A stretch of 64,000 bases of DNA. Source: Amycolatopsis acidiphila (GTDB taxonomy: Bacteria > Actinomycetota > Actinomycetes > Mycobacteriales > Pseudonocardiaceae). The position numbers and the translations under genes were made by a program. Each line of letters starts with the position of its first letter. Position 1 is the first letter of the stretch. Under the pieces are notes generated by a model. The model was not told the origin of the DNA and made no database searches. It saw only the letters and a list, made by a program, of their open reading frames with translations. This document shows, one piece after another, positions 30,413-47,696 of this stretch. The stretch spans positions 6,014,001-6,078,000 of the forward strand of contig NZ_CP090063.1 of NCBI RefSeq assembly GCF_021391495.1. The letters run 5' to 3'.

Positions 30413-30889
30413 CTACATCTTCGCTTCCGCCGTCTTGATCGCCTCACGGATCCGGAAGTAGGTTCCGCAGCGGCAGATGTTGCGGATGTCGTCGAAGTCG
30501 GCGTCGGTCAGTTCCCTGCCCTCCGCCTTGGCCGCCTTGACCTTCGCGACCGCCGCCATGATCTGACCCGGCTGACAGTAACCGCACTGGGCGACGTCGT
30601 GGTCGAGCCACGCCTCCTGCATCGGGTGCAGGGTACCGGTCTGCTCGTCGGCCAGACCCTCGATCGTCGTGATCTCGTCGGTGGCCTTGATGTCCGACAC
30701 AGGCACCGAGCACGGGTTGAACGCCTTGCCGTTGATGTGGCTCGTGCAGGCCTTGCACACGTTGAGACCACAACCGTACTTCGGCCCGGTCACGCCGAGC
30801 AGGTCCCGCAGCACCCACAGCAGCCGGACGTTGTCCTCGGTGTCGACGGTGACCTGTTTGCCGTTGAGCTGAAAACTGTGTTGAGGCAC
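30413..30889 (-). CDS. (2Fe-2S)-binding subunit of molybdenum hydroxylase
   Basis: 158 residues. Plant-type ferredoxin cluster (CGLNVCKACTSHINGKAFNPC) followed by the helical second cluster (CGYCQPGQIMAAV and ICRCGTYFRIREAI), the layout of the small subunit of the xanthine dehydrogenase family, especially isoquinoline 1-oxidoreductase-like enzymes. It passes electrons from the molybdenum centre of the large subunit encoded just upstream (nine bases). There is no FAD subunit gene nearby, as in two-subunit aldehyde or isoquinoline oxidoreductases whose electrons go to a cytochrome. Confidence 0.92.
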   Translation of the reverse strand: MPQHSFQLNGKQVTVDTEDNVRLLWVLRDLLGVTGPKYGCGLNVCKACTSHINGKAFNPCSVPVSDIKATDEITTIEGLADEQTGTLHPMQEAWLDHDVAQCGYCQPGQIMAAVAKVKAAKAEGRELTDADFDDIRNICRCGTYFRIREAIKTAEAKM

Positions 30890-30898
30890 GGGGGTTCC

Positions 30899-33205: not shown

Positions 33206-33437
33206 CGACTGTCCTCTCGACAGAGGTGGGACCGGGTGGAGGCCGGCCGAGAGCACGCACGGTCACCGCGCGTCCTCGGGCTATGACCGCCGTCACGATA
33301 GAAACAGCTTGCCCGAGGGGTCAACGGCGCGTAGCCGCTCGGGTGAAGTTCTGTGACGAGATGACAGTGACGTGCCACAAAACTGTTACGCCGACACACC
33401 CGAACGTTGTACAAAGCTACGCCGATCGGCCCACGAA

Positions 33438-33477: not shown

Positions 33478-34593
33478 TCAGCTCGCGCCGTGCATGAGCA
33501 CGCCGCGGATGTTCTTGCCGTCGCGCAGGTCCTGGTAGCCCTCGTTCACCTGCTCCAGCGTGTAACGACGGGTGACCAGCTCGTCGAGCTTGATCGCGCC
33601 CGCCTGGTACAGCCGCAGCAGCCGCACGATGTCGTACTGCGGGTTGGCCGAGCCGAACAGGGTGCCCTTGATGGTCTTCTCGAACAGCGTCATGACGCCG
33701 CCGGAGACGTGCACGGTGAGCTTCTCGGGGTTGGCCAGCCCGGTGATGACGACGGTGCCGCCCTTGCCGATCGTGTTGAAGGCCGAGGTCACGACCTCCT
33801 CCTCGACCGTGCCGACCGTGATCAGCGCCTGGTCGGCCATCTGGCCCCAGGTCAGCTCGCTGATCTTGGCCATCGCCTCGTCGGCGGTGGCGAACGCGTG
33901 CGTGGCACCGAGCTTCAGCGCCGTCTCGCGCTTGAACTCCACGGGGTCCACCACGACGACGTTGAGCGCGCCCGCGTGCGCCGCGCCCTGGACGGCGTTG
34001 ATGCCGATCCCGCCGATGCCATAGACGACCACGGTGTCACCGGCACGCACGCCGCCGGCGTAGTTGGCTGTGCCCCAGCCGGTGGGCACGCCGCAGCCGA
34101 CGAGCACGGCGGTCTCCAGCGGCAGCCATTCGTCGACCTTGACGACCGAGTGCTGGGAGATCGTGGCGCGCTCGGAGAACGTGCCGAGCATGCACATGCC
34201 GCCGTAGTCGGTGCCGCCGCGGTGGAAGCGGAACGTGCCGTCGGGCAGGCCGCCGTCGAGGATGGTGGCGCCCATGTCGCACAGGTTGGAGCGGCCGGTC
34301 GCGCAGTAGCGGCAGGTCCCGCAGTTGGGGATGAAGCTGCAGACCACGTGGTCGCCGGGCTTGACCTTGGTGACGCCGGGGCCGACGTCCTCGATCACGC
34401 CGGCGCCCTCGTGGCCGCCGACGATGGGGAACCTCGGCACCAGGTCGTTGTCGATCAGGTGCAGGTCCGAGTGGCACAGCCCGGCGGCCGTGTACTTGAT
34501 CAGGACCTCACCCTCGCGAGGGCCGTCGAGCTCGAGCTCCTCGATCTCGAACGGCTTGTGCGGATCGTGCAGGACAGCGGCTTTCGTCTTCAC
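33478..34593 (-). CDS. NDMA-dependent (mycofactocin-associated) alcohol dehydrogenase
   Basis: 371 residues. Medium-chain Zn alcohol dehydrogenase: GLCHSDLHL and GHEGAGVIEDVG (catalytic Zn), CGTCRYCATGRSNLC (structural Zn), VVVYGIGGIGINAVQGA (nucleotide site). KTKAAVLHDPHKPFEIEELELDGPREGEVLI and GTDYGGMCMLGTF are typical of the nicotinoprotein ADHs whose tightly bound NAD is re-oxidised by mycofactocin (or by the dye NDMA in assays). It is the last gene of the cluster. Start: GTG 34593 has AGAGGTGA eight bases upstream; GTG 34605 would overlap the mftE stop as GTGA and is an alternative. Likely substrates are alcohols such as methanol or ethanol. Confidence 0.88.
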   Translation of the reverse strand: MKTKAAVLHDPHKPFEIEELELDGPREGEVLIKYTAAGLCHSDLHLIDNDLVPRFPIVGGHEGAGVIEDVGPGVTKVKPGDHVVCSFIPNCGTCRYCATGRSNLCDMGATILDGGLPDGTFRFHRGGTDYGGMCMLGTFSERATISQHSVVKVDEWLPLETAVLVGCGVPTGWGTANYAGGVRAGDTVVVYGIGGIGINAVQGAAHAGALNVVVVDPVEFKRETALKLGATHAFATADEAMAKISELTWGQMADQALITVGTVEEEVVTSAFNTIGKGGTVVITGLANPEKLTVHVSGGVMTLFEKTIKGTLFGSANPQYDIVRLLRLYQAGAIKLDELVTRRYTLEQVNEGYQDLRDGKNIRGVLMHGAS

Positions 34594-34601
34594 GACGCGT
34601 T

Positions 34602-35306
34602 TCACCTCTTTGTGACGTGGGTCGCAGGCGCGGACGGCTTCATCATGACATCCGAGGCAAGCGTCCCGACAGCGTTAAGTAGACTTCCAACCCAGCGGAG
34701 CAAGGTTTCCCGGCCTTCCTCCGCGCTCGCGCCGGCCGGATCGCCGAGCACGCCGTTGGGGCTGACCGCGCGCACACCTCCTTCCCGTAGCGGGCCGATC
34801 AGTTCCGGCAAGGGCGTGGTGTTCCCGGCTTGGAGCCGGTCGAGCCGCACCGCGGCGGGCCGCAGGGCGAGCATCACGGACGTCTCGGTCCGCCCGGCGT
34901 GGCTGTCGTCGCTCGGCCCGCCGGGGCACCAGGCGCACACGTTCCTTCCCTCGTAACGAAGTTTCGCCACCGCACGGCGCAACGGCCCGGCGTTCCCGCC
35001 GTGTGCGCAGACGAGAACCACCCCGGCGAAACCATCAGCCGAGCGCACCAGCTCGACGAGGACCTGTTCCGTCGCTTCCTGCCCGATCGAGAGCGTGCCG
35101 GGAAAACCGGCGTGCTCACCGCTGGACCCGTAGGGCAGGGCGGGTGCGACCAGGACGTCCTCCCGCTGCCGCGCGAGCCGTTCGCACAGCGCCACCGCGA
35201 TCTCGGTGTCGACGGTGAACGGCAGGTGGGGGCCGTGCTGCTCGGTGGCGCCCAGCGGCACCGCGAGCAGTCGCGGGGCGAGCTCGGTCCAGGTCGTGTC
35301 CTTCAT
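34602..35306 (-). CDS. mftE: Mycofactocin precursor peptidase MftE (creatininase family)
   Basis: 234 residues. Creatininase-fold metal site: GATEQHGPHLPF (Glu, His) and HGGNAG, DSHAGRTETS with further ligands. In the known pathway MftE cuts the MftC-modified precursor to release the valine-tyrosine-derived core (AHDP). Its ATG overlaps the mftF stop (ATGA). The location between mftF and an NDMA-type dehydrogenase supports the call. Confidence 0.93.
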   Translation of the reverse strand: MKDTTWTELAPRLLAVPLGATEQHGPHLPFTVDTEIAVALCERLARQREDVLVAPALPYGSSGEHAGFPGTLSIGQEATEQVLVELVRSADGFAGVVLVCAHGGNAGPLRRAVAKLRYEGRNVCAWCPGGPSDDSHAGRTETSVMLALRPAAVRLDRLQAGNTTPLPELIGPLREGGVRAVSPNGVLGDPAGASAEEGRETLLRWVGSLLNAVGTLASDVMMKPSAPATHVTKR

Positions 35307-36616
35307 TTTTTCCCTGGCCAGTTCGACAGATCCGGCACCAATGGCGCGACAGTACGTTCCTTCGCGCAGCCACGCCAGACCCCGGCGCCGTAGCTAAGAT
35401 CGTCCGCGGTTCGGGCGAGCAACCACCGCACCGGGTCGAGCCCGGGCCGCACCCGCGCCCACTCCCGGAGGTGCCGCGACAACGCGAGCACGAGGACCAG
35501 CCGTCCGCGGCGGGTGGTGGCCAGCAAGGGCAACGCCACCGGCCCCCAGGTTCGGGTGAGCGCGTCCGCGAAGTACCGCCCGGCCCCGAGATGGCCCCGC
35601 ACCGCGATCGCCAGGGCGTCCTTCGCCGGGACGCCCAGCGGTGCGAGCTTGCGCGGCAGCAACGCGGCCGTGCCGAGTGCGACAGCCACGCCGAGACCCG
35701 GCCGCCGCGCGGCCGCGAGCCCCCATGCCAGGGCCGTCCAGCCCGAGACCCGAAGGGGCGCCATCACCTTGCGCCCGTGCCTGCGGGCCAGCGGCGCGGC
35801 TGACGAGCCGTAGTCGAACCGTTGTCTCGCCCAGGCACGCCATGTCTTCCGGGGGGCGTGCAGCACTTCCGAATTCGGCTCGTACCGGACGCGGCCACGC
35901 AGCCGCCACACGAAGTCGACGTCCTCGCCGAAGCGCAGCGTCTCGTCGAAGCCGCCGGCGTCGCGTGCCGCCGCGGTGCGGACGACCAGTGCGGCGGTCG
36001 GCACATAGGTCACGCGCCCGTCCTGGCGGACCTGCGCCGGGGCATCGCCGAGGTCCAGCGCGGAACGGGCCCGCTCGTACACCTCGAGTGCGGAACGGCC
36101 TGGCACGCTGTGGATCCGCGGCGCGACGGCCACCGTCGACGGGTCCTCGAAATGCGGCAGGAGCGCGTCGAGCCAGCCCGGCTGGGGTTCGGTGTCCGCG
36201 TCGAGGAACGCGGTCAGTTCCGTGCTGACGTGCCGGAGCCCGGTGTTGCGTGCGGCGGCGGGGCCACGGGCGACCGGATGTCGTTCCGCGGCACCGGAAA
36301 CCGGCCTGCGGGAGCCGTCGTCGATCACGATGTCGCATCGCGGCAGGGCTTGCGGGTCCCGCGCGGGCACGACGACGGTCACGTCCGCGCGTGTCAGACC
36401 GGCCTGCCCGTACCGGGGATGCGCGATACCCGCGTCGACGAGCTTGTCCGCGAGCGCGCGGTGCGCGGGCGTGTCCGCGACCTCCGCACCGTCGCGCCAC
36501 TCCAGCACCAGGCGCGCACCGGTCTTCGACAGCCGCAGGACCCGCAGTGGCGCGCCGCCGATCAGCACCTGGCCGAGGACGCGCGTCCCCGGGTCGATGC
36601 CGAGCCACAGCTTCAC
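35303..36616 (-). CDS. mftF: Mycofactocin glycosyltransferase MftF
   Basis: 437 residues from GTG 36616, whose GTGA overlaps the SDR stop. GT2 fold: VTVVVPARD, the VIDDGSRRP donor-binding Asp, FLDADTEPQPGWLDALL (DxD-like) and GFDETLRFGEDVDFVWRL. An N-terminal 80-residue extension and a C-terminal set of hydrophobic segments are typical of MftF. It is known to attach beta-1,4-linked glucose units to premycofactocin. The TAAGAT-like C-terminal region and 3' end overlap mftE by 4 bases. Confidence 0.92.
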   Translation of the reverse strand: MKLWLGIDPGTRVLGQVLIGGAPLRVLRLSKTGARLVLEWRDGAEVADTPAHRALADKLVDAGIAHPRYGQAGLTRADVTVVVPARDPQALPRCDIVIDDGSRRPVSGAAERHPVARGPAAARNTGLRHVSTELTAFLDADTEPQPGWLDALLPHFEDPSTVAVAPRIHSVPGRSALEVYERARSALDLGDAPAQVRQDGRVTYVPTAALVVRTAAARDAGGFDETLRFGEDVDFVWRLRGRVRYEPNSEVLHAPRKTWRAWARQRFDYGSSAAPLARRHGRKVMAPLRVSGWTALAWGLAAARRPGLGVAVALGTAALLPRKLAPLGVPAKDALAIAVRGHLGAGRYFADALTRTWGPVALPLLATTRRGRLVLVLALSRHLREWARVRPGLDPVRWLLARTADDLSYGAGVWRGCAKERTVAPLVPDLSNWPGKK

Positions 36617-37395
36617 GCGGTGAACCCTCCGTCGGCGTGCACCACCGTGCCGGTGATGGCGGAGGACTGCTCGCCGCACAGCCAGCAGACCGCGGCGGCC
36701 ACCTCCTCGGGCTCCAGGAGCCGTTCGGCGAGCTGGTGCTGCGAGAACTCCTCGACGTCGCCGAGGCCGTAGAGGTCCGCGGTGGCGTCGAGCATCGCCG
36801 TGCGCGTCGAGCCCGGTGAGACGGCCGTGGCGGTCACCCCGGTGCCCCGCAGGTCGGTTGCCAGGCCCCGGATCAGGCCGACGACCGAGTGCTTCGCCGC
36901 GTTGTAGCCCGCGAGATGCCACAGCCCCTTGTGCCCGGCGGCGGAAGCGAGCGCGACGAACCGGCCAGAGCGTGGCTCCGGCCGCCGCAGCAACGCGGGC
37001 ACTGCGGCGCGGGCGAGGTTGAAGACCCCGCGCACGCCGATGTCGAACAACGCGTCCCACTCGGCGTTCGTGGTCTCCCACAACGGCTTCCCGCCCGCCA
37101 TCACCGCGGCGGCGGCGACCACCGCGTCCAGGCCGCCGAACTCGCTTTCCGCCCGCGCCACGGCCTCGGTCAGCGCCTCCTGCTCGCGGACATCGCCGAC
37201 GACGCCGAGCACGCGGCCGGGCCACCGGTTCGCCAGGGCGGACAGTTCTTCCTTGCTTCCCAACGGGTAGCACAGACCTGGCAGGTCCGCGCAGAGGTCG
37301 ACGGCGACGACCTGCCAGCCCTCGCCCGCGAGCTGGTCCACCACGGCCGCCCCGATCCCGCGGGCGGCCCCGGTCACCAGCGCCACGCGGCTCAT
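36613..37395 (-). CDS. Mycofactocin-coupled SDR family oxidoreductase
   Basis: 260 residues. TGAARGIGAAVV is the dinucleotide site and YNAAKHSVVG the catalytic Tyr-Lys pair. After the second strand there is an insertion (VDLCADLPGLCYPLGSKEEL) seen in mycofactocin-dependent SDRs, thought to hold NAD in place so that mycofactocin must re-oxidise it. It would oxidise an alcohol or reduce a carbonyl. It overlaps both neighbours by 4 bases. Confidence 0.9.
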   Translation of the reverse strand: MSRVALVTGAARGIGAAVVDQLAGEGWQVVAVDLCADLPGLCYPLGSKEELSALANRWPGRVLGVVGDVREQEALTEAVARAESEFGGLDAVVAAAAVMAGGKPLWETTNAEWDALFDIGVRGVFNLARAAVPALLRRPEPRSGRFVALASAAGHKGLWHLAGYNAAKHSVVGLIRGLATDLRGTGVTATAVSPGSTRTAMLDATADLYGLGDVEEFSQHQLAERLLEPEEVAAAVCWLCGEQSSAITGTVVHADGGFTA

Positions 37396-38219
37396 GGCGC
37401 GTACCCGTGCCGGCGCAGGTAGTCGAGCAGCTCGCGCGCGGCATCCTCGGGCGTCGCCGGCCGCAGGACCTTCGGCGGGGTGCGCTCCACCAGCGCACCC
37501 GTGAGGGCGAGCATCCGCTGATGTGGCTCGGACCCGGGCGGCGGCGGCAGCGCCCGCGCCCGCGGCCGGTAGGGCTTGGCCGTCCCCGCCCGCAGGTAAC
37601 GCATCGAACCGGCACGGGCGACCGGGATCTCGGCGGTTCGCGCGGCGATGGTCGCGGGCAGCGGCGCCCGCCGCAGCACGGTGTCGGCCGGCTCGACCGA
37701 GCACACCGCAGGCAGCCCGAAGGTCAGCCGTTCCCGGCGCCCGCCGTCGAGGCGGCGCACCGCGTGCAGCGCGCCGTCGGCGGCGGTCAGCTCGATGAGG
37801 CCGAGCGCCTGGCACGCGCCGAGGCGCTGGGCCAGGAAGGCCGGGGTGCTGCCGGTCCCGCGGTCGGCGGAGTGGTCCCCGCACACGACGACGTCCGGCC
37901 GGTCCTGCAGGCCGTCCAGCAGCAGCCGTGCGGTCTCGCTGCCGTCCTCGGCGACCGTCGCGGCCGGGCCCTCGACGCGCAGCGCGTCGTGCGCGCCGGC
38001 CGCGAGCGCCTCCCGCAGCATCTCGCCGGCTTCCGCGGGCCCCACGGTCACGGCCAGGCACCGCCCGCCGAAGGCCTCCGCGATGCGCAGTGCGTGCTCG
38101 AGCGCCGCGCGGTCGGCGGCGCCCGCCCCGCTGGTTCGCGCGTCCGAGTGCACCTCGCCGGTGAGCGGGTCCACGGTGGCACGCTGATCGCTCCAGCGCA
38201 GTGCGGCCACGACCAGCAT
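37392..38219 (-). CDS. etfB: Electron transfer flavoprotein beta subunit (FixA-like), mycofactocin-linked
   Basis: 275 residues starting MLVVAALRW. ETF-beta features include LEHALRIAEAFGGRCLAVTVGPAEAGEMLREALAAGAHDALRV, then DVVVCGDHSADRGTGSTPAFLAQRLGACQALGLIEL (nucleotide-binding region). Partner of the EtfA product encoded 1.6 kb upstream; between them lie FixC- and FixX-like genes. It would carry electrons from a flavin dehydrogenase, or from mycofactocinol-linked enzymes, to the FixC quinone reductase. The C-terminal tail (LLDYLRRHGYAP) is typical of this subgroup. It overlaps the SDR gene by 4 bases. Confidence 0.85.
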   Translation of the reverse strand: MLVVAALRWSDQRATVDPLTGEVHSDARTSGAGAADRAALEHALRIAEAFGGRCLAVTVGPAEAGEMLREALAAGAHDALRVEGPAATVAEDGSETARLLLDGLQDRPDVVVCGDHSADRGTGSTPAFLAQRLGACQALGLIELTAADGALHAVRRLDGGRRERLTFGLPAVCSVEPADTVLRRAPLPATIAARTAEIPVARAGSMRYLRAGTAKPYRPRARALPPPPGSEPHQRMLALTGALVERTPPKVLRPATPEDAARELLDYLRRHGYAP

Positions 38220-38221
38220 CG

Positions 38222-38521
38222 CTATCCCCTCTTGAACACGACGCCGGCCCCACCGTCGGGGTAGCTCCAGCTGATCGCGCCCTCGCCGTCGCACACCTGG
38301 TAGCAGGTGCCGCATTCGAAGCACTGCTCGTAGTTGAACAGGATGCCGCCCTCGCTGGTGGGCACGAACAGGTCGGCCGGGCAGGCGTGCACGCACGCCT
38401 TGGTCGTGCACGAGCGGCAGACGTCGGTGTCGACGGTGATGTGCGGGCGCGGTGACACCCGGAACTCCACGGTCGACATGACGTCCTCGAACGCCGCCTC
38501 CTGGTAACGCCGATCGGTCAT
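38222..38521 (-). CDS. fixX: FixX-like ferredoxin
   Basis: 99 residues. CRSCTTKACVHACPADLF and CFECGTCYQVC carry the cysteines of a FixX-type 4Fe-4S protein. It is the natural redox partner of FixC. ATG at 38521 overlaps the fixC stop as ATGA; the etfB start follows two bases after its stop. Confidence 0.88.
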   Translation of the reverse strand: MTDRRYQEAAFEDVMSTVEFRVSPRPHITVDTDVCRSCTTKACVHACPADLFVPTSEGGILFNYEQCFECGTCYQVCDGEGAISWSYPDGGAGVVFKRG

Positions 38522-39870
38522 CGCAGACCTCGCATCCCTGTCCAGCCGTCGCGCACCAGATCCCGCCAGCGCACGCCGTTGTCCTTCGCACTGCGCCGCA
38601 GCAGCGTGCGCAGACCGGGCTTCGGCAGCGGATTGTCCACCTGGAAGAGCCCCTGCACCAGGTCGCACACCATGCCCGGGTAGTTCTGCTGCATCCGGTC
38701 CGAGAGCACCAGGCCCGGCAGGTCGCGCAGCTTGCGGTGGTCGGCCAGCACGAACGACCGCTCCAGCATCGTGCGGTACCCGGCGAGGCCCTGGCCGGAC
38801 ACGTCGCCTGCCTTCAGCGCCGCGGCGGCCGCCCGGCCCGCGTACATCCCGGCGCCGAGGGCGAAGTTCACGCCCTCCAGCCAGATCCCGGCCGCCAGGC
38901 ACATCGCCGCCGCGTCCCCCGCGACCAGCATCCCGTCGCCGATCAGCTCGGGCATCGCGCGGTAGCCGCCCTCGGGGATCAGGTGCGCGGAGTACTCGAT
39001 CTGCTCGCCGCCCTTGATCAGCGGCGCGATCGCGGGATGGCGCTTCAGCTCCGCGATCAGCTCCTCCGGCCTGGTCTTCGCCTTGCTCACCCCGGTCAGC
39101 CCGAGGACGACGCCGATGCTGACCGAGTCCAGGTTCGTGTAGAGGAAGCCGCCACCCGGGATGCCGCGGGTGCAGCCCAGCATCTCGATGTCCACACCGT
39201 CGCGGCCGCTCACGGCGAACCGCTCCTCGATCGCCTCGCGGGGCAGCGCGAGAGTCTGCTTGACGCCCAGGGTCAGGTGCTCGGCCTCGTGCCCGGTCCG
39301 GTACATCCCGGCTTCCTTGGCCAGGAACGAGTTCACCCCGTCACACGCGATGACGACACCGGCGGTCAGGTCGCCGTCCGGTCGGTCGGTGCGCACGCCG
39401 ACGACCGCGCCGGCGTGGTCGCGCAGCAGGCCGGTGACCACAGTGGACGGTACAAGCACCGCTCCTGCCTCGACCGCCAGCTCGGCGAGCCACGAGTCGA
39501 GGTCGGCGCGATGCGCGGTGGCGCCGTTGTACGGCGGCTTGCCCCAGTCCTGGGTGCGGAAGTCGAGGGTGAGTGCCTGCGTCGGGGTCATCACCATGGT
39601 GGCGCGGCGGGTGACCCAGCGCTGCACGGGCATCCGCTCCCACCACCGCGGCACGAGCTCGTCGAGGATGCGGCCGTAGACCACGCCGCCGTAGACGTTC
39701 TTCGCCCCGGGGAACGGCCCGCGCTCGACCAGCGCGACCGAGTACCCGGCCCGCGCGACCTCCAGCGCGGCGGCCGAGCCCGCCGGGCCCGCGCCCACGA
39801 CGACGACGTCGAAGGTCTTCGTCGTCTCATCGACCACAGTGGACACCGAGTCCGGGCCGGCGTGGGTCAT
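38518..39870 (-). CDS. fixC: FixC-like electron transfer flavoprotein-quinone oxidoreductase
   Basis: 450 residues. DVVVVGAGPAGSAAALEVARAGYSVALVERG is the FAD-binding site; GGVVYGRILDELVPRWWERMPVQR and PGGGFLYTNLDSVSIGVVLG and GLMLAGDAAA-like GDGMLVAGDAAAMCLAAG (near 315) are FixC/ETF-QO motifs. It has no own 4Fe-4S domain; that function is on the adjacent FixX. It would pass electrons from the ETF to the membrane quinone pool. Overlaps both neighbours by 4 bases. Confidence 0.9.
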   Translation of the reverse strand: MTHAGPDSVSTVVDETTKTFDVVVVGAGPAGSAAALEVARAGYSVALVERGPFPGAKNVYGGVVYGRILDELVPRWWERMPVQRWVTRRATMVMTPTQALTLDFRTQDWGKPPYNGATAHRADLDSWLAELAVEAGAVLVPSTVVTGLLRDHAGAVVGVRTDRPDGDLTAGVVIACDGVNSFLAKEAGMYRTGHEAEHLTLGVKQTLALPREAIEERFAVSGRDGVDIEMLGCTRGIPGGGFLYTNLDSVSIGVVLGLTGVSKAKTRPEELIAELKRHPAIAPLIKGGEQIEYSAHLIPEGGYRAMPELIGDGMLVAGDAAAMCLAAGIWLEGVNFALGAGMYAGRAAAAALKAGDVSGQGLAGYRTMLERSFVLADHRKLRDLPGLVLSDRMQQNYPGMVCDLVQGLFQVDNPLPKPGLRTLLRRSAKDNGVRWRDLVRDGWTGMRGLR

Positions 39871-40757
39871 CGCACCTCCAGCATTCGGGCCAGCTCGGCG
39901 AGCACGGCCTGCGCGTCGGCGACGATTCCCAGATCGGCCATCGCGGTCATGGGACAGGACGGATCGGTGTTGACGCTCACGACGTGCGCGGGATCGCCGA
40001 GACCACCGAGGTGTTGCGCGGCACCGGAAACGCCGAACGCGACGTACAGCTCGGGATGCACCACGACGCCCGTGGTGCCGATCTGCCGCTGGTAGCCGGT
40101 CCAGCCCGCGTCGGTCACCACGCGGGTCGCACCGAGGGAAGCCTCCATCGCGTTCGCGACCTTCTCCAGCAACCCGACCGCCGGGGCGCCGCCGAGCCCG
40201 GCGCCCGCGCCGAAGATCCTGGGCGCCTCGGCGAGATCGACGGTACCCGGCTCCGGGTCGAGCACCTCGACGACGGTCACGTCGGGAGCATCGGCCACCG
40301 GCAGTTCGAGTTCGTGCAGCGTCACCGACTCAGCGGGGTGACCGCCCCGGACGCCTGGTTGCAGCGTCGCGACGAACGGCCCGTCGGCGACGAGGTCGAG
40401 GCACACCCGGCCGTCCCAGCGCGCGACCTCCGCGCCCCGGTCGGTCACCCGGATCGCCCCGGCCAGCAGCGGCCGCCCCAGCTCCGCCGCCAGGCGTGGC
40501 GCGAGATCGCGGCCGTCGGGCGAGGCAGGCAGCAGGATCTGCTCCGCGTCGAGGACTTTCGCGAGCTGGCGAGCCCAGCGGCCGGGCGCGAACACGCCGT
40601 TCTCGCTCAGCCGGCCGGTGCTCAGCGACGGCAGCTCGCCCGCCGCCTCCTTGACACCGGTGCCGACGAGCACCGCGGCTCCGCCGGCCTCGGCGACGGT
40701 CTCGTCCGCCCCCAGCGGGAGCACCCCGTCGCGGACGACGATGACGGCGAGCTTCAC
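39867..40757 (-). CDS. etfA: Electron transfer flavoprotein alpha subunit (FixB-like)
   Basis: 296 residues. The C-terminal FAD domain has RIFGAGAGLGGAPAVGLLEKVANAMEASLGATR, DAGWTGYQRQIGTTGVVVHPELYVAFGVSGAAQHLGG and VVSVNTDPSCPMTAMADLGIVADAQAVL, all hallmark ETF-alpha positions. Pairs with EtfB. It overlaps the OYE_2-like gene by 4 bases, showing that the ETF module belongs to the mycofactocin transcript. Confidence 0.9.
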   Translation of the reverse strand: MKLAVIVVRDGVLPLGADETVAEAGGAAVLVGTGVKEAAGELPSLSTGRLSENGVFAPGRWARQLAKVLDAEQILLPASPDGRDLAPRLAAELGRPLLAGAIRVTDRGAEVARWDGRVCLDLVADGPFVATLQPGVRGGHPAESVTLHELELPVADAPDVTVVEVLDPEPGTVDLAEAPRIFGAGAGLGGAPAVGLLEKVANAMEASLGATRVVTDAGWTGYQRQIGTTGVVVHPELYVAFGVSGAAQHLGGLGDPAHVVSVNTDPSCPMTAMADLGIVADAQAVLAELARMLEVR

Positions 40758-42712
40758 AGCGCCACCCCCGCCCGATGGCCCTCGATGACGGCGGCGTGCG
40801 CCCGGCGCGGGGTCACGCAGTCACCGGCGCGGTGCACCGGGAAAGGCACGCCCTTGAGCTGCTGCCACAGCTCGTCCTCCGGCGCCTGGTGCGTCGCGCA
40901 CACCACCCAGTCGCAGCGGACCTCGGTGGTGACGCCGGTGGTGTGCGTGAGCACCTGCAGCACGACACGACCGTCCTCTTCGGACGCGGCGAGCACGACC
41001 TCGTCGGTGTGCTGCCGGATGCCCTTGGCGTGCGCCCGGACGTTGAACGTCTCCATGTCGAGTGTCACGCCGAGGTCCTGGCCGACGACCATGCCCGAGG
41101 TGGACAGCCGCACGGCGCAGCCGCGGTCGGCGAGCAGTTCGGCGACCGACGTCGCCTGGTGGAAGCCGAGGTCGTCGAGCACGAACACCTCACCGTCGGG
41201 CACCGCCCGGCCCTCCAGCACGTCCCGCACGTCCACGACTCGTTCGAGCCCGCCCGCCCAGTACGGCGCCTGCGGCCTCGCACCGGTCGCGAGCACGACG
41301 GCGTCCGGCGACTCCGACCGCAGCAGCTCCGCGGTGGCCTCGGCGCCGGTCTTGATGTCCACGCCGTAGCGCTGGCATTCGGCGAGCAGGTTCCGTACGA
41401 CGTCGAGGAACTCCGCGCGGCTCGGCACGCTCGCGGCCAGCGAAACCTGGCCGCCGGTGGTTTCGTTGCGCTCGAACAGCGTGACGTGGTGCCCGCGCTG
41501 CGCGGCTGTCGACGCGGCCTGCAGCCCGGCCGGGCCGCCGCCGACGACCAGCACCCGCTTCGGTCGCGGGCCCGGCATCGGCAGTGGGACGCTCTCCTTG
41601 CCCGTGCGCGGGTTCTCGATGCAGCCGAGCCACCGGTTGAGGCCCATCCGCCCGACGCACTCCTGGTTGCACGACAGGCAGGTCCGGATCTCCGTGGCGT
41701 GCCCGGCGCGGGCCTTCGCGACGAAGTCGGCGTCCGCGATCTGCCCGCGCACCACGCCGACGAGGTCGCAGTGGCCTTCGGCGAGCGCCCGCTCGGCCTG
41801 CACGGGGTCCTTGATCCGCCCCACCCCGATCACCGGCAGCCGGACGGCGTCGCGGATCGCGTTCGCGATGAACAGCGCGTATCCCGGCGGGATCGCCATC
41901 GACGCCTCGATCATGAACAGCGTCGAGGTGGCGACGCCGATCGAGGTGTTGATGTAGTCGACCTTTCCGGTCGCCTCGACGAGCTTCGCGACCTCGACCG
42001 CCTCGTCGATCGTCGTGCCGCCCTCGATCAGCTCGTCCCCGCACAGCCGAACGCCCAGCGCGCGCTCCGGGCCGATGGCCTCCCGGACCGCGCCGACGAT
42101 CTCCAGCAGGAGCCGCGCCCGGTTCTCCAGCGAGCCGCCGTAGGCGTCGGTGCGCTTGTTGGTCGCGGGCGAGAGGAACCCGCGCACGATCGACGAGTGC
42201 GAGCACTGCAGCTCGACTCCGTCGAACCCGCCCTCGGCACAGTGCCCGGCGACCACGCCGTACCCGGCGACGACCTCGCCGATCTCGTGCTGGTCGATCG
42301 CCTTGGGCACCTCGCGGAACATGGGGTCGGGCACCGGCGACGGCGCCCACACCGGTAGCCGCGAGTACATCGACGACGCCTGGCCGCCGTTGTGGTTGAG
42401 CTGCGCGAGGATCGGCGTGCCGTGCGCGTGCACCGCGTCGGTGATGCGCCGGTAGCCGGGGATCACCGACCGCGAGAAGCCGTGGATGAGCTTCTCGTAC
42501 GGCCAGTCCGTCCGGTGCGTCGAGTGTTCCTCGGTGATGATCAGGCCCGCGCCGCCGGCCGCGCGCGCCGCGTAGTACTCGGCGTGCTGCTCGCTCGGCA
42601 GCCCGTCCTGGGCGTAGTTCGTCAGGTGCGCGGAGAACACGATCCGGTTGCGCACCACGAGCGGCCCGACCCGCAGGGGCGAGAACAGGTACCGGTACCG
42701 TCCGCCGCTCAT
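40754..42712 (-). CDS. Mycofactocin-associated FadH/OYE family oxidoreductase (type 2)
   Basis: 652 residues, organised like 2,4-dienoyl-CoA reductase FadH. Residues 1-335 form an old yellow enzyme FMN barrel (FSPLRVGPLVVRNRIVFSAH, GGFDGVELQCSHSSIVRGFLSP). The cysteine set Cys345, Cys348, Cys352 and Cys364 binds a 4Fe-4S cluster. Residues 380-650 hold an FAD/NAD domain (VLVVGGGPAGLQAASTAAQRGH). The substrate in mycofactocin metabolism is not established; it could be an enzyme using or regenerating mycofactocin. Coupled on both sides by 4-base overlaps. Confidence 0.88.
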   Translation of the reverse strand: MSGGRYRYLFSPLRVGPLVVRNRIVFSAHLTNYAQDGLPSEQHAEYYAARAAGGAGLIITEEHSTHRTDWPYEKLIHGFSRSVIPGYRRITDAVHAHGTPILAQLNHNGGQASSMYSRLPVWAPSPVPDPMFREVPKAIDQHEIGEVVAGYGVVAGHCAEGGFDGVELQCSHSSIVRGFLSPATNKRTDAYGGSLENRARLLLEIVGAVREAIGPERALGVRLCGDELIEGGTTIDEAVEVAKLVEATGKVDYINTSIGVATSTLFMIEASMAIPPGYALFIANAIRDAVRLPVIGVGRIKDPVQAERALAEGHCDLVGVVRGQIADADFVAKARAGHATEIRTCLSCNQECVGRMGLNRWLGCIENPRTGKESVPLPMPGPRPKRVLVVGGGPAGLQAASTAAQRGHHVTLFERNETTGGQVSLAASVPSRAEFLDVVRNLLAECQRYGVDIKTGAEATAELLRSESPDAVVLATGARPQAPYWAGGLERVVDVRDVLEGRAVPDGEVFVLDDLGFHQATSVAELLADRGCAVRLSTSGMVVGQDLGVTLDMETFNVRAHAKGIRQHTDEVVLAASEEDGRVVLQVLTHTTGVTTEVRCDWVVCATHQAPEDELWQQLKGVPFPVHRAGDCVTPRRAHAAVIEGHRAGVAL

Positions 42713-44595
42713 ACCAGCGCCCTTTCCCGCACGACCGCCAGCGCCGCGCGCCGGCCGTCGAGGATCGCCTCGTGCACGGTCCGCGGCGCCACACAGTCCC
42801 CGGCCCGCACTGCGCCGGGCAGCGTGTCGGGCAGCCGGTGTCCACAGTGGACGAGGACCGCGCACGGCAGCTCGCGGCGCTCGGCGGTGAACACGTCCTC
42901 CAGCACCACGTGACCGGCGTGCACCTCGCGCAGGAGCGACCGTTTCGCCAGCGTCACGCCCGCCTGTTGCAGCCGGGTGTTCGCGTCGGCGAGGTCTCCG
43001 GTGAGCGCGAGCTGGGTGCCGATCACCTGGTCCTGGCTGATGATCGCGGTGGGCTTTCCTCCCGCCGCCAGCAGTTCCGCGACGCCTACGCCGACGAAGT
43101 CACCCACCGGGTCGGCCACCACGACCGGCCCGTCCGGGAGCTCGACCCCGTTCAGCAGGTCGACGACGTCCACCACAGTGCCACCGTGCACGGCGTAGTT
43201 CCTCGGCCCGGCAACGGATCCCGTCGCGACGATCGCACCGCCGGGCACGTCGGTGACCTCGGTGCCCGTCGAGACGTGCACGCCGAGCCGCCGGACTTCG
43301 CCCTCCAGCCAGTCGGCGAGCTTCGCCAGCCGCGCCCGGCCACCGACCTCGGCCGCGACCCGCAGCATGCCCCCGAGTCGCTCCGACCGTTCGCGCAGCT
43401 CGACGCGGTGCCCGCGCATCGCGAGCACGCGCGCGGCCTCCAGCCCGGCCGGGCCGCCGCCGATCACCAGCACCTCGCGTGGCTCGTCGGCGCCGTCCAG
43501 CGCCGGGTCTTCGGTCTCGTGCCCGCTGCGCGGTTCACCGATGCAGGCGACGATCGGGTTGCGGTTGTCCCGCACGCGGCACTTCTGGTTGGACAGCACG
43601 CACGGCCGCGGCGCGGCGCCCGCGCGGACCTTCGCGACCAGGTCCGGGTCGGCGATCTGCGCGCGGGTCATCTCGACCAGGCTCGCGACCCCGTCGTCGA
43701 GGGCCTGCTGCGCCTGCGCCGGGTCGACCACACTGCCCTGCAGCACGGTCAGCGTCCGGCCCTCGACGGCTTCGGTGATGCGGCGGCAGAGATCGAGGTT
43801 GAAGCCGGGCTCGGTGTGCAGGTCCGGGCGGGTGGCCGACCCGCTCATCGCGGAGCCGCGCACCGGCACGAGGTAGTCCACCGAGGCGGCGAGGTCGCCG
43901 GCGAGCACTGCCGCCTGTTCGGGGGTGAGCCCGGCCCACGGCGCCAGCTCGTCACACGACAGGCGCAGCCCGATGATCCGGTCGCCGACAGCCTCGCGCA
44001 CGGCGCCCAGGACCTCGCGCAGCAGCATCGACTTGTCGCCACCGTAGGTGTCACCGCGCTGGTTCGTCAGTGCCGAGGCGAACTGCCGCAACAGGGAGTA
44101 TTGACCTGCGTCGAGTTCCACACCATCCATTCCGGACTCGGCGGCCAGCTTCGCGGACTCGCGAAAACCCTCGACGAGGGCATGGATCTCGGCGTCCTCC
44201 AGCTCCATCGGCAGCTCACGGCTGGCCACGTCCGGCACGCGGGAAGGCGCCCAGAGCGCGGACTGGCCGAACGCCGACGAGCCCTGCGAACCGGCATGCC
44301 CGAGCCCGGCGAGTACCAGCGTGCCGTGCGGCCGGCATGAGTCCGCAATGGATGACCACCCCGGCCCGCACAGCGCTGCCAGCGGCGCCCGCTCGTACGG
44401 CCAGTCCGAATCGTGCACGCTCGCCGTCTCCGTGACGACGATGCCTGCCCCACCCGCGGCGCGGGCGGCGTAGTAGGCGACGTGCCGGTCCGAGAGCATC
44501 CGGCCGCGGCCGAGGTTCGTCTCGTGCGGTCCGAACAGCACCCGGCTCGGCGTGGTCCGGCCCGCGATCTCCGCCGGACCGGTCAGCGCACTCAT
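42709..44595 (-). CDS. Mycofactocin-associated FadH/OYE family oxidoreductase (type 1)
   Basis: 628 residues, FadH layout: OYE barrel (SRVLFGPHETNLGRGRMLSDRH, GMDGVELDAGQYSLLRQFAS) then cysteine region and an FAD domain (VLVIGGGPAGLEAARVLAMRGHRVELRERS). The cysteine motif reads CVLSNQKC...C: the second cluster Cys seen in FadH and in the type 2 neighbour is Ser here. The enzyme may have a modified or no 4Fe-4S cluster. It overlaps mftC and the type 2 gene by 4 bases, so the pair is made together and may be a heteromer. Substrate unknown. Confidence 0.88.
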   Translation of the reverse strand: MSALTGPAEIAGRTTPSRVLFGPHETNLGRGRMLSDRHVAYYAARAAGGAGIVVTETASVHDSDWPYERAPLAALCGPGWSSIADSCRPHGTLVLAGLGHAGSQGSSAFGQSALWAPSRVPDVASRELPMELEDAEIHALVEGFRESAKLAAESGMDGVELDAGQYSLLRQFASALTNQRGDTYGGDKSMLLREVLGAVREAVGDRIIGLRLSCDELAPWAGLTPEQAAVLAGDLAASVDYLVPVRGSAMSGSATRPDLHTEPGFNLDLCRRITEAVEGRTLTVLQGSVVDPAQAQQALDDGVASLVEMTRAQIADPDLVAKVRAGAAPRPCVLSNQKCRVRDNRNPIVACIGEPRSGHETEDPALDGADEPREVLVIGGGPAGLEAARVLAMRGHRVELRERSERLGGMLRVAAEVGGRARLAKLADWLEGEVRRLGVHVSTGTEVTDVPGGAIVATGSVAGPRNYAVHGGTVVDVVDLLNGVELPDGPVVVADPVGDFVGVGVAELLAAGGKPTAIISQDQVIGTQLALTGDLADANTRLQQAGVTLAKRSLLREVHAGHVVLEDVFTAERRELPCAVLVHCGHRLPDTLPGAVRAGDCVAPRTVHEAILDGRRAALAVVRERALV

Positions 44596-45779
44596 CGCAG
44601 TCCGGCGAGTGGACTGGTGTCGCACGCGCGGTCCGGGCGGACGCCCTCGGGCGGTCCGAAGCCGATGCTCACCGGCACCTTGCGGCTCTTGCGGGTGGTC
44701 CGGTGCGAGTGGTCCACATCGGACCGCGGTGCGGCGCCGACCGTCTCCAGCGCGTGCTCGCCGTGGCCCTTGACGCACTCCGGGTCCGGGCCGTCGAGCG
44801 GCAGGCCGGTGAAGAACTTGGCCGCCATGCAGCCGCCCTGGCAGGAGTCGTAGGCCGAGCACGACGTGCACGCGCCCCCGGTCTGCGGGCCGCGCAGGCG
44901 CGTGAACAGCTCCGAGTCCGTCCAGACCTTCGCGAAACCACCCTCGTCACGGACGTTGCCGCCCAGGAACTCCTGGTGGATCGCGAACGGGCAGGCGTAG
45001 ACGTCGCCCACCGGGTCGATCAGGCACACCACCCGCCCGGCTCCGCACAGGTTCAGACCCGGCAGCGGGTCCGAGCCGAGGGCGTTGAGGTGGAAGAACG
45101 AGTCGCCGGTGAGCACCTTCTCGCCGCGCGCGACGAGCCAGTCGTACAGCTGCAGCTGCTGCTCGGCGGTCGGGTGCAGCTCGTCCCACACGTCGGCGCC
45201 GCGTCCCGAGGGGCGCAGGCGGGTGATCCGCAGCTGCGCGCCGTAGGTGTCGGCGATCTCCGCGAACTGGTCCAGCTGCCCGACGTTCTGCCGGGTCATC
45301 ACGACGCTGAGCTTGAAGTCGCGGAACCCGGCGTCACGCAGGTTCGTCATGGCGCGGATCGCCGTGTCGTACGAGCCCGGCCCGCGCACGGCGTCGTTGA
45401 CCTCCGCGGTGGCCCCGTCGAGCGAGATCTGCACGTCCACGTAGTCGGTCGCGGCGAGCCAGCGGGCCCGCTCCGGCGTCAGCTTCACGCCGTTGGTGGA
45501 GAACTTCACCCCCACCTGGTGCGCGACCGCGTACTCGACCAGCTCCCAGAAGTCCGGCCGCACCGTGGGCTCGCCGCCGCCGATGTTCACGTAGAACACC
45601 TGCATGCGCTGCAGCTCGTCGATGACCGCCTTGCACTCCGCGGTGCTCAGCTCGCGCGGGTCACGGCGCCCGGAGGACGACAGGCAGTGCACGCACGAGA
45701 GGTTGCAGGCGTAGGTCAGTTCCCAGGTCAGGCAGATGGGCGAGTTGAGCCCTTCCTTGAAATGCTCGACGAGCTTCAT
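44592..45779 (-). CDS. mftC: Mycofactocin radical SAM maturase MftC
   Basis: 395 residues. CNLSCVHC (Cys25, Cys29, Cys32) is the radical SAM cluster motif; NIGGGEPTVRPDF follows. The C-terminal SPASM region has CGAGRVVCLIDPVGDVYACPFAI and CTSCSAYDSCQGGC for auxiliary clusters. In the known pathway it removes the carboxylate of the terminal Tyr of MftA and forms a Val-Tyr link. The start (MKLVEHFKEGLNSPICLTWELTYACNLSC) has GAAAGGCG upstream and lies ten bases after mftB. Confidence 0.95.
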   Translation of the reverse strand: MKLVEHFKEGLNSPICLTWELTYACNLSCVHCLSSSGRRDPRELSTAECKAVIDELQRMQVFYVNIGGGEPTVRPDFWELVEYAVAHQVGVKFSTNGVKLTPERARWLAATDYVDVQISLDGATAEVNDAVRGPGSYDTAIRAMTNLRDAGFRDFKLSVVMTRQNVGQLDQFAEIADTYGAQLRITRLRPSGRGADVWDELHPTAEQQLQLYDWLVARGEKVLTGDSFFHLNALGSDPLPGLNLCGAGRVVCLIDPVGDVYACPFAIHQEFLGGNVRDEGGFAKVWTDSELFTRLRGPQTGGACTSCSAYDSCQGGCMAAKFFTGLPLDGPDPECVKGHGEHALETVGAAPRSDVDHSHRTTRKSRKVPVSIGFGPPEGVRPDRACDTSPLAGLR

Positions 45780-45789
45780 CGCACGCCTT

Positions 45790-46056
45790 TCAGTCGCGTC
45801 GCTCGATGGTTCCGTTCCGCGCCAGCCCTTCGAGGGCTTTCAGGTAGGAGGGGCGCTGGTCGTCCGGCACGCCGGCCGCGACGAGGGTGCTGTGCACGTC
45901 GGGCTGCACCTCGAGCGCGCGCACCACCTCGACCAGCAGCTTCGTCTTCAGGAACGACAGCCTGCGGGTGCCGAAGTCGTAGGCCAGCGCACCGAAGGGC
46001 TCCGGCCGGAGCGCGACCCGCGGCGAGCACCGGTAGGCCTGGTCTGGCTCGAACAC
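45790..46056 (-). CDS. mftB: Mycofactocin precursor-binding protein MftB
   Basis: 88 residues from a GTG at 46056, inferred from the family N-terminus (FEPDQAYRCSPRVALRPEPFGALAYDFGTRRLSFLKTK). It is the RiPP recognition element-type chaperone that holds the MftA leader for MftC. The mftA stop lies about six bases upstream, so it depends on translational coupling; no separate RBS is visible. ALRPEPFGAL and RRLSFLK are the hallmark segments. Confidence 0.9.
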   Translation of the reverse strand: MFEPDQAYRCSPRVALRPEPFGALAYDFGTRRLSFLKTKLLVEVVRALEVQPDVHSTLVAAGVPDDQRPSYLKALEGLARNGTIERRD

Positions 46057-46061
46057 GAGCG

Positions 46062-46166
46062 TCAGTACACGCCGCACATGCCGTCGATGGAGACCTCTTC
46101 GACGAGCAGCTCTTCCTCCACCAGGGCCTCGTCGCGCGTCTGCGAAACCTGCTGAGCCTCGGACAT
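46062..46166 (-). CDS. mftA: Mycofactocin precursor peptide MftA
   Basis: 34 residues, leader MSEAQQVSQTRDEALVEEEL and C-terminal IDGMCGVY; the last two residues Val33-Tyr34 become the redox core. AAGGGAGC precedes the ATG at 46166. It heads the biosynthetic transcript and faces mftR across an 82-base spacer. Small acidic leader and terminal GVY are diagnostic. Confidence 0.95.
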   Translation of the reverse strand: MSEAQQVSQTRDEALVEEELLVEEVSIDGMCGVY

Positions 46167-46248: not shown

Positions 46249-46839
46249 ATGACCGATCAGGGGAGCCCGCGCGCCGGGCGCAGGCCGATCACCTCGCGTT
46301 CCGAGGTGGAGCACGCCGCGTTCGAGCTGTTCGCCCGCCAGGGCTTCGAGCGCACCACGGTCGAGGACATAGCGCAGGCCGCGGGCATCGGGCGCCGCAC
46401 GTTCTTCCGCTACTTCCCCTCGAAGAACGACATCGCGTGGGGCGACTTCGACGGCGAGCTGCGCCGGATGCGCAAGCAGCTGGCCGAGTACCCGCCGGAG
46501 GTGCCGCTGATCGAGGCGATCCGCGAGGCGCTGGTCGACTTCAACCGGGTCGACCCGGACGAGGCGCCGTGGCACCGCCGCCGGATGGAGCTGATCCTGA
46601 CCACCCCGGCCTTGCAGGCACACTCGACGCTGCGGTACGCCGCGTGGCGTCAGGTGCTCGCCGAGTTCGTCGCCGTGCGGCTCGATGTGACACCGGACTC
46701 CCTTGCGCCGCAAGCGATTGCGTACGCGACGCTGGGCGTGGCGCTGGCCGCGTACGAGCAGTGGCTGCGCAGCCCGCAGACCGAGCTGCACGACCTGCTC
46801 GCCGCGGGCGTGCGGGAGCTGAGCGCGGCCGTCGGCTGA
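46249..46839 (+). CDS. mftR: Mycofactocin system TetR-family regulator MftR
   Basis: 196 residues. N-terminal HTH: RSEVEHAAFELFARQGFERTTVEDIAQAAGIGRRTFFRYFPSKNDIAWGDF, the MftR hallmark. Homologues repress mft genes and respond to acyl-CoA. ATG 46249 has GGAAGAG just upstream; ATG 46237 is an alternative. It is divergent from mftA and followed within nine bases by a methyltransferase gene, which may share its transcript. Confidence 0.9.
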   Translation: MTDQGSPRAGRRPITSRSEVEHAAFELFARQGFERTTVEDIAQAAGIGRRTFFRYFPSKNDIAWGDFDGELRRMRKQLAEYPPEVPLIEAIREALVDFNRVDPDEAPWHRRRMELILTTPALQAHSTLRYAAWRQVLAEFVAVRLDVTPDSLAPQAIAYATLGVALAAYEQWLRSPQTELHDLLAAGVRELSAAVG

Positions 46840-46847
46840 GCCGCCCC

Positions 46848-47696
46848 ATGGCGCGTGGCGTCGGCACTCTCTACGATCCCGGTGTGCTGCTCCCGCGTGG
46901 TTCCGAGGCCATCAGCCCGACCGGCCACTACACCGGGTACGTCTGGGTGCGCAACGGGCTGGCGCCGCAGGAGCTGGCGACCCCGGAAGGTCGGTTGTTC
47001 TTCCACGCGCTCGAACCGGTGATGCGGGTCAGCCGGCTGCTGGGGCGCCCCACCTTCGAGGGCATGCTGGTCGCCCGGCACCGGATGCTCGACCTGCTGC
47101 TCGCGGGCGCGATCGAGCGCGGCGAGATCGGGCAGGTGATCGAGATCGCGGCCGGCTTGTCCGCCCGCGGCTGGCGGTTCGTCCAGCGGTACGACGGCGT
47201 GACCTATGTGGAGGCCGATCTACCCCGAATGGCGGCTCGCAAGCAGCGGCTGCTGCAACGCCTCAGCGGTCCCGGCCCCCGCGTCACCACGATCGACGCC
47301 CTCGCTGACGACGGTCCCGACAGCATCGCCGCCGTCGCCGACACCCTCGACCCGGAGGTCGGCACCGCGATCGTGACCGAAGGGCTGCTGAACTACTTCG
47401 ACCTAGAGGCGGTCACCGGCATGTGGCACCGCTTCGCCGAGGTGCTGCGCCGGTTCCCGACGGGCGCCTACTTCGCGGACGTCGTGCTGAGGCCGCAGGC
47501 GAATTCCATGGTCGAGAAGCTCGGCGCGGGCCTGCTGGCGGCCACCGTCCGAGGCCGGGTGCACCTGCATTTCGACACCGAGGCGGAGGTCGCCGCAGCC
47601 CTCGCCGAGGCAGCCTTCCCGGCGGCGGACGTCGTCCCGGCAGGCACGGACAACCCCGGGGCAAGGCTTGTGCACGTGATCGACGCCTGGACATAG
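46848..47696 (+). CDS. SAM-dependent methyltransferase, leucine carboxyl methyltransferase-like
   Basis: 282 residues. LCM/PPM-type layout: HYTGYVWVRNGLAPQELATPEGRLFFHAL, VIEIAAGLSARGWRF (SAM site), then YVEADLPRMAARKQRLL and VTEGLLNYFD. Such enzymes methylate carboxylates of proteins or small molecules. It follows mftR by eight bases, so a link to mycofactocin is possible, but it does not look like MftM, the mycofactocin glycan methyltransferase. No clear RBS is present at the ATG. Confidence 0.8.
   Translation: MARGVGTLYDPGVLLPRGSEAISPTGHYTGYVWVRNGLAPQELATPEGRLFFHALEPVMRVSRLLGRPTFEGMLVARHRMLDLLLAGAIERGEIGQVIEIAAGLSARGWRFVQRYDGVTYVEADLPRMAARKQRLLQRLSGPGPRVTTIDALADDGPDSIAAVADTLDPEVGTAIVTEGLLNYFDLEAVTGMWHRFAEVLRRFPTGAYFADVVLRPQANSMVEKLGAGLLAATVRGRVHLHFDTEAEVAAALAEAAFPAADVVPAGTDNPGARLVHVIDAWT

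Follow-up and report, generated by a model that had tools for sequence, protein, structure and literature searches.

A recurrent OYE2-ETF-FixCX module that probably takes the place of MftD in mycofactocin operons lacking mftD

How does an organism make the redox center of mycofactocin when its mycofactocin (mft) operon has no mftD? This question is raised by an operon of Amycolatopsis acidiphila (assembly GCF_021391495.1) located in a 64,000-nucleotide stretch of contig NZ_CP090063.1 (positions 6,014,001 to 6,078,000), referred to here in its entirety as the window. Read along the minus strand, the gene order is mftA-mftB-mftC-OYE1-OYE2-etfA-fixC-fixX-etfB-SDR-mftF-mftE, followed by an alcohol dehydrogenase (ADH) gene of the N,N-dimethyl-4-nitrosoaniline (NDMA) type, with mftR divergent (Table 1). 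OYE1 and OYE2 are FadH/OYE flavoproteins, etfA and etfB (mft_etfA and mft_etfB) encode the subunits of an electron transfer flavoprotein (ETF), and SDR stands for a short-chain dehydrogenase/reductase. MftD is taken to be the creator of the mycofactocin redox center, and genome mining rules rely on it. In Mycobacterium smegmatis, deletion of mftD is described as abolishing mycofactocins and causing the accumulation of the amino-lactam 3-amino-5-[(p-hydroxyphenyl)methyl]-4,4-dimethyl-2-pyrrolidinone (AHDP) (PMC7491314), so that an organism that retains the operon but not mftD can be expected to depend on a substitute. We consider it fairly probable that this substitute is a nonhomologous, quinone-coupled module made up of OYE2, the ETF, and the FixC/FixX pair, which would carry out the MftD step of mycofactocin biosynthesis.

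A preliminary description of this locus had placed two FadH/OYE proteins, ETF alpha, FixC, FixX, ETF beta, and an SDR between mftC and mftF/mftE, and all of them are indeed present there. It had also reported that mftD and mftG are missing from the cluster and proposed looking for them elsewhere in the genome, which is a single 8.18-Mb contig. Profile searches of the whole genome found no mftD over the cutoff (TIGR03966; top score, 255.5 bits versus 470.85) and no mftG over the cutoffs of the two models used, TIGR03970 (321.2 versus 387.45) and TIGR04542 (140.6 versus 400); the Dietzia model NF038210 was not run. A survey of mft clusters, as suggested in the same description, located the OYE2-ETF-FixCX set next to mftB/mftC in Acidimicrobiales and in other genera too, which makes it more than a chance grouping.

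In a sample of 396 genomes of the phylum, mftC was found over the cutoff in 73, which were then searched for mftD, mft_etfA, mftG, and OYE2. Scores for mftD exceeded the cutoff in 57 of these genomes, none of which had OYE2 or mft_etfA over the cutoff. The remaining 16 encode OYE2 and ETF alpha and no mftD; there were no genomes with neither. Among these 16, OYE2 scored over the cutoff in 14, with a fragment in G378 (787.4 bits) and the protein of G326 (763.9 bits) falling below the required 793.15, and ETF alpha scored over the cutoff in 12, the other 4 being weak matches located beside mftC (118 to 134 bits versus 240). In some genomes, parts of the module lay on separate contigs, and all of them were recovered. 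The exchange of OYE2 and mftD gave a Fisher P value of 2e-16, uncorrected for phylogeny. As for mftG, it was found over the cutoff in 18 of the 73 genomes, all of them with mftD, and in none of the 16 OYE2 genomes (Fisher P value, 0.008), whereas 39 of the 57 mftD genomes had neither mftG nor mft_etfA over the cutoff; in this sample, mftG means TIGR03970 alone, the Gordonia and Dietzia models not having been run. Thus, the module occurs where mftD is missing, while mftG is patchy.

The same 16 genomes bear on an alternative in which a lactate dehydrogenase-like paralog of MftD, encoded elsewhere, deaminates AHDP, the OYE-ETF module being unrelated to this step and serving, for example, client metabolism. 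The A. acidiphila genome does contain two matches to the MftD model below the cutoff (255.5 and 223.7 bits). However, even at an E value of 1e-40, that model finds nothing in 9 of the 16 mftD-less genomes, and matches of 200 to 315 bits are also common in genomes with a true mftD, which makes this explanation very improbable.

The exchange is recurrent. On an mftC tree of 72 of the 73 sequences (G253 was omitted, as its mftC lay outside the fetched piece), the type label changes 10 times, with 5 of these changes forced by strongly supported branches; some long branches were flagged. In the independent supported pairs, mftD was opposite to the module in 5 of 5 (sign test P value, 0.0625, the floor with five pairs being about 0.06), and mftG differed in a mean of 0.4 of the same 5. 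The two types also differ in what often comes after mftC, namely, mftD in the first and OYE1-OYE2 or OYE2 in the second. In three divergent genomes, whose mftC is 39 to 42% identical, the locus has the order mftC-OYE2-etfA-fixC-fixX-etfB and no OYE1 match. An open reading frame ending in GxCGxY was found in 71 of the 72 loci that were read. Fifteen of those loci were of the OYE2 type; in 14 of them the MftA peptide ends in CGVY, as in the window, and the fifteenth piece misses the mftA stretch. The same AHDP intermediate is therefore expected.

Oxygen lifestyle was considered as a driver of the exchange and rejected: with a threshold E value of 1e-20, COX1 (PF00115) was unmatched in 10 of the 73 mftC genomes, 6 of the mftD type and 4 of the OYE2 type, with no clean link, and it was matched in 12 of the 16 OYE2 genomes. 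The six COX1-unmatched genomes of the mftD type (G041, G011, G095, G051, G073, and G208) all come from a single family, f20.

A natural experiment is provided by an Amycolatopsis clade in which the two to four members checked lack the ETF genes. The clusters of A. acididurans and A. deserti have the order mftB-mftC-OYE1-OYE2-SDR-mftF-mftE-ADH, with etfA, fixC, fixX, and etfB missing; in A. acididurans, the stop codon of OYE2 overlaps the start of the SDR gene. Both genomes have a lone mftD on another contig, keep nicotinoprotein genes, and show no mftG over the cutoff. Their OYE2 proteins are 76 and 72% identical to the one in the window, with MftC at 91 to 92%. Of 286 conserved OYE2 sites, 19 and 25, respectively, are changed, versus 0 to 14 in 13 controls, and of the 146 otherwise invariant positions, 5 and 8 are changed, the two common to both proteins being H172 (replaced by Gln) and D302. 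In an alignment of 356 OYE2 rows (346 distinct strings, with 240 rows being the top 120 of each of two larger sets), position 172 is His in 345 rows and Gln in 11. These 11 rows form one clade, in which all named members are Amycolatopsis and two entries (L133 and P0224) are one protein. Genomes of four members were examined, and mftD is present in each; for A. acididurans and A. deserti, the lack of the ETF genes was read from the clusters, whereas the genomes matched to the other two members, G557 and G536, have no mft_etfA. By comparison, H172 is intact in all 21 loci of the A. acidiphila family that keep the ETF, including 10 in genomes that also have mftD. In this clade, which represents a single evolutionary event, the absence of the ETF genes thus accompanies the presence of mftD and an altered active site in OYE2 rather than the presence of MftG.

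The preliminary description had proposed that electrons from mycofactocinol pass through the ETF and FixCX, perhaps to quinone, in place of MftG, and that the deamination ascribed to MftD is performed by some other enzyme. As anatomy, the electron path to quinone is well supported; a role as an MftG replacement is not the most likely one, given the 39 mftD genomes lacking both mftG and mft_etfA, the near constancy of mftG across pairs that differ in mftD, and the state of A. acididurans and A. deserti. MftG replacement as the sole role was accordingly rejected, as the data favor MftD. The second proposal was the better half of that interpretation, with the OYE2-ETF module as the best candidate for the other enzyme; the module may have a second role in reoxidizing mycofactocinol. 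If reoxidation were its function, OYE1 and OYE2 would be mycofactocinol dehydrogenases feeding the chain from the ETF through FixCX to quinone, and another enzyme would deaminate AHDP. Such an arrangement would fit the absence of mftG (TIGR03970) over the cutoff from the 16 OYE2 genomes and from 50 further ones (the two sets may overlap), versus its presence in 18 of the 57 mftD genomes. The substitute for MftG in the approximately 25% of mftC genomes that lack it is left open in PMC11778925, where menaquinone reduction by mycofactocinol is indicated to be favorable. We nevertheless regard this arrangement as rather unlikely, since the module swaps with mftD, since mftD is present in the two Amycolatopsis genomes that lack both the cluster ETF genes and an mftG over the cutoff, and since the essential deamination is left unexplained. 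The results bear on the published question of mftG-less genomes without settling it.

In the reading that we prefer, with OYE2-ETF-FixCX in place of MftD, the gene content, the lack of mftD and mftG over the cutoffs, the recurrent swap, and the residue pattern are observed, whereas the chemistry and the route and direction of the electrons are inferred. MftA, MftB, MftC, and MftE would produce AHDP as usual. The FMN of OYE2, with H172 in the active site, would then oxidize the C-N bond of AHDP, either free or glycosylated, and hydrolysis of the resulting imine would yield the alpha-keto-amide premycofactocin and ammonia. Electrons would flow from the 4Fe-4S cluster of OYE2 to mft_etfAB and further through FixC/FixX to menaquinone, much as from trimethylamine dehydrogenase (TMADH) through ETF to ETF:quinone oxidoreductase (ETF:QO); OYE1 would be a possible partner subunit. 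Transfer of electrons from the 4Fe-4S cluster to ETF is described for TMADH (PMC8097209), and a nicotine gene cluster is described in which pno occurs together with etfAB and ETF:QO (PMC5500553).

The OYE2 protein comprises an FMN barrel, 4Fe-4S cysteines, and a nucleotide-binding domain. It shares this three-domain fold and the cluster cysteines with trimethylamine and histamine dehydrogenases, as well as ETF and ETF:QO partner genes. Among the cysteines following the barrel, C345, C352, and C364 are found in all 356 rows and C348 is found in 337. Asp replaces C348 in the other 19 rows (e.g., L027 and P0105), which belong to a divergent group with a Syntrophorhabdaceae-named protein among its members. 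H172 aligns with the His of the histamine dehydrogenases 3k30 and 6de6 and of the 6-hydroxypseudooxynicotine (6-HPON) amine oxidase 6l6j and not with FadH/NCR; in TMADH, the active-site His is catalytic. The Tyr residue of FadH and NCR is a proton donor, and the GCGG stretch of FadH is an NAD(P)H-binding motif. These two hallmarks of FadH/OYE ene-reductases are missing from OYE2, which has S174 opposite that Tyr (356/356 rows) and an invariant DxxGxH (213/213 rows) in the place of the GCGG of FadH and the DDDHYY of histamine dehydrogenases. In contrast to histamine dehydrogenase, OYE2 has no cysteine for covalent FMN binding, as Leu30 (213/213 rows) stands opposite a Cys that we take to be the site of 6-S-cysteinyl-FMN. 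The fold was tried as a discriminator and rejected, because full-length matches to the OYE2 structure model come from NCR and FadH as well as from TMADH and histamine dehydrogenase; the model has low-confidence stretches, including residues 259 to 277 and 349 to 358 near the cluster cysteines.

OYE1 looks different. In 102 rows (the protein of the window and 101 from other loci), the position of H172 is occupied by Gln in 78, and the second cluster cysteine is missing in 30. Judging by these residues, OYE1 is the variable part of the module and possibly a pseudo-enzyme partner of OYE2. This pattern is relevant to a broader scheme in which OYE2-ETF-FixCX both deaminates AHDP and, with OYE1 or with the same active site, reoxidizes mycofactocinol, covering the roles of MftD and MftG alike. 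Two OYE paralogs next to a single ETF would suit such a scheme, as would the lack of mftG over the cutoff in the 16 and 50 OYE2 genomes (with the same possible overlap). We find it unlikely, however, with OYE1 mostly lacking the His and often the cysteine, the three divergent genomes having no OYE1 match in the locus, and A. acididurans and A. deserti keeping their nicotinoprotein genes with neither the cluster ETF nor an mftG over the cutoff.

Two observations weigh against OYE2-ETF-FixCX as the MftD substitute. First, the overall similarity of OYE2 is greatest to NCR and FadH, which are reductases, with TMADH and histamine dehydrogenase scoring slightly lower. Second, 10 of the 22 genomes with an mft ETF in the family of A. 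acidiphila also encode mftD. The first point, together with the nearest relatives of FixC (7koe_C) and EtfB (4kpu), both presumably from bifurcating systems, would fit electron flow in the reductive direction, that is, FixABCX-type bifurcation feeding low-potential electrons to OYE-type reductases or MftC, the exchange with mftD being a historical accident. We judge this extremely improbable: OYE2 lacks the Tyr of FadH/NCR and the GCGG stretch of FadH, and it would explain neither the repeated swap with mftD nor the replacement of H172 in the absence of the ETF genes.

The second point shows where the pattern leaks. Among 150 genomes of that family, mftD is found in 54, mft_etfA in 22, and both in 10, an overlap that is not below chance. 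Strict exclusion of mftD and the module, which holds in the phylum sample, was therefore discarded as a rule. What survives is complementarity, in that every mftC genome of the phylum sample has either mftD or the module. In the 10 genomes with both genes, mftD belongs to a second mft cluster in 3, is a lone gene in 6, and is a divergent copy (48%) in 1. These assignments come from 40 regions, of which 20 are from genomes with both genes, 11 from the 12 other mft_etfA genomes (the twelfth being that of the window), and 9 from the 44 genomes with mftD only. In 50 named genomes picked for carrying OYE2, mftD scored over the cutoff in 8 and mftG (TIGR03970) in none. These 50 were the ones used for the mftD and mftG searches out of 80 named loci, themselves the best 80 of 543 candidates, and their ETF genes were read from 20-kb loci, with no genome-wide mft_etfA search. 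Of the 42 without mftD over the cutoff, which include A. bartoniae and Saccharopolyspora spinosa, 41 show etfA and fixC in the locus; the remaining one (L137) shows no ETF, its locus stopping at a contig end.

Isolated mftD genes, around which no mft cluster was seen for about 10 kb, occur in genomes of Saccharopolyspora, A. sacchari, and other members of the family in which the OYE2-ETF operon is present as well (loci L176, L177, L179, L180, L182, L184, L185, L187, L188, and L190, some of which represent the same genome twice). On the MftD tree, they are spread over three or more places.

Compared with the Mycobacterium-type mft system, the A. acidiphila operon has the same mftA, mftB, mftC, mftE, mftF, and mftR genes, nicotinoprotein clients, and a precursor ending in GVY. 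It differs in lacking mftD and mftG over the cutoffs and in having OYE1-OYE2-etfA-fixC-fixX-etfB-SDR between mftC and mftF. It shares the set of EtfA, EtfB, FixC, and FixX with the FixABCX/EtfABCX systems (FixC scores 265 bits with 7koe_C), although the presumed electron donor here is OYE2 rather than NADH. The proteins of the window are over-cutoff members of the NCBIfam families TIGR03996, TIGR03997, NF038209, and TIGR04503, and the family descriptions name no reaction.

That TIGR03966 is not universal among mft species was reported in 2011 (PMC3023750). A 2024 study of Saccharopolyspora describes 17 mycofactocin-like clusters without mftD and with TIGR03997 "with unknown function"; its section on these clusters does not mention ETF or FixCX, tests no replacement, and does not resolve how the MftD step is done (PMC11162802). 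According to the same source, the rule of antiSMASH 6.1.1 files mftD-less clusters as ranthipeptides, and the argument for production rests on mycofactocin from S. erythraea (PMC11162802). That evidence probably concerns a genome of the mftD type; in family genome G457, which is probably that of S. erythraea, mftD lies within the mft cluster and mft_etfA is absent. A literature search, with most subscription papers outside its reach, found no paper pairing mycofactocin with ETF or electron transfer flavoprotein and no biochemistry on the module. MftD uses O2. No electron acceptor of MftD was found in PMC8406134, and mycofactocin is not mentioned in PMC7371122.

The module is real and recurrent and is probably a second solution for the redox-center step of mycofactocin. 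If so, mycofactocin biosynthesis would have two unrelated solutions for this step, one of them tied to the quinone pool instead of O2; 16 of the 73 mftC genomes sampled here would need rereading, and the named OYE1/OYE2 and mft_etfAB families would be assigned a function. A more tentative idea, which we hold possible if somewhat doubtful, is that the module is the older, oxygen-independent route, by which anaerobes such as syntrophs could make mycofactocin, and that MftD is a later aerobic shortcut that repeatedly displaced it; the module might also drain electrons of mycofactocinol to quinone. OYE2 relatives carry the annotation names Syntrophorhabdaceae, Deltaproteobacteria, and Gaiellales, which are names alone.

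Table 1. Genes of the mft locus in the window, with the matches on which the assignments rest
Feature	Position	Strand	Basis
mftR, TetR-type regulator, divergent from the operon	46249..46839	+	TIGR03968, 281.4 bits (cutoff, 224.9)
mftA, precursor peptide, 34 aa, C terminus IDGMCGVY, Val-Tyr core	46062..46166	-	Sequence and list of open reading frames
mftB, chaperone	45790..46056	-	TIGR03967, 103.7 bits (cutoff, 33); start chosen by reading
mftC, radical SAM maturase	44592..45779	-	TIGR03962, 656.3 bits (cutoff, 265)
OYE1, FadH/OYE family 1	42709..44595	-	TIGR03996, 848.4 bits (cutoff, 627.9)
OYE2, proposed AHDP dehydrogenase with H172 as putative catalytic residue	40754..42712	-	TIGR03997, 996.2 bits (cutoff, 793.15)
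mft_etfA, ETF alpha subunit	39867..40757	-	NF038209, 437.8 bits (cutoff, 240); PF00766
FixC-like ETF:quinone oxidoreductase	38518..39870	-	PF21162, 28.4 bits (cutoff, 27.7); 7koe_C FixC, 265 bits
FixX-like ferredoxin	38222..38521	-	PRK15449, 47.2 bits (under cutoff of 166); Fer4 domains
mft_etfB, ETF beta subunit	37392..38219	-	TIGR04503, 347.2 bits (cutoff, 200)
Mycofactocin-coupled SDR	36613..37395	-	TIGR04504, 403.5 bits (cutoff, 250)
mftF, glycosyltransferase	35303..36616	-	TIGR03965, 386.9 bits (cutoff, 280)
mftE, peptidase	34602..35306	-	TIGR03964, 281.8 bits (cutoff, 172)
NDMA-dependent alcohol dehydrogenase, mycofactocin client	33478..34605	-	TIGR03989, 566 bits (cutoff, 440)

Between mftA and the ADH gene there are 12 junctions, of which 9 (with starts chosen among candidates) show the 4-base overlaps described earlier as linking nearly all of the genes; the other three are gaps of 5 bases (mftA/mftB), 10 bases (mftB/mftC), and 2 bases (fixX/etfB). 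The PRK10015/PRK10157 models match FixC and the PRK15449 model matches FixX, in each case with scores under the cutoff. FixC also aligns with 2gmh_A, and PF21162 represents the ubiquinone-binding region of ETF-QO. MftC has 395 residues versus the 339 positions of its model, the C terminus carrying about 50 extra residues. The closest named relatives by OYE2, among the best 80 of 543 loci, are Amycolatopsis sp. GM8 (95%) and A. bartoniae (94%).

Adjoining the mft ADH gene, at positions 30413 to 33256 on the minus strand, is a two-subunit molybdenum hydroxylase, presumably isoquinoline oxidoreductase-like, with a 2Fe-2S subunit and a large subunit in which the molybdopterin domains are permuted. 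Six Amycolatopsis loci (L093, L094, L097, L099, L133, and L152) likewise contain the large subunit, and four of them contain the small subunit; the enzyme possibly catalyzes the step that comes next after alcohol oxidation. Downstream of mftR, at positions 46845 to 47696 on the plus strand, lies a gene for a methyltransferase of the leucine carboxyl methyltransferase type (PF04072), which is also present in six Amycolatopsis loci.

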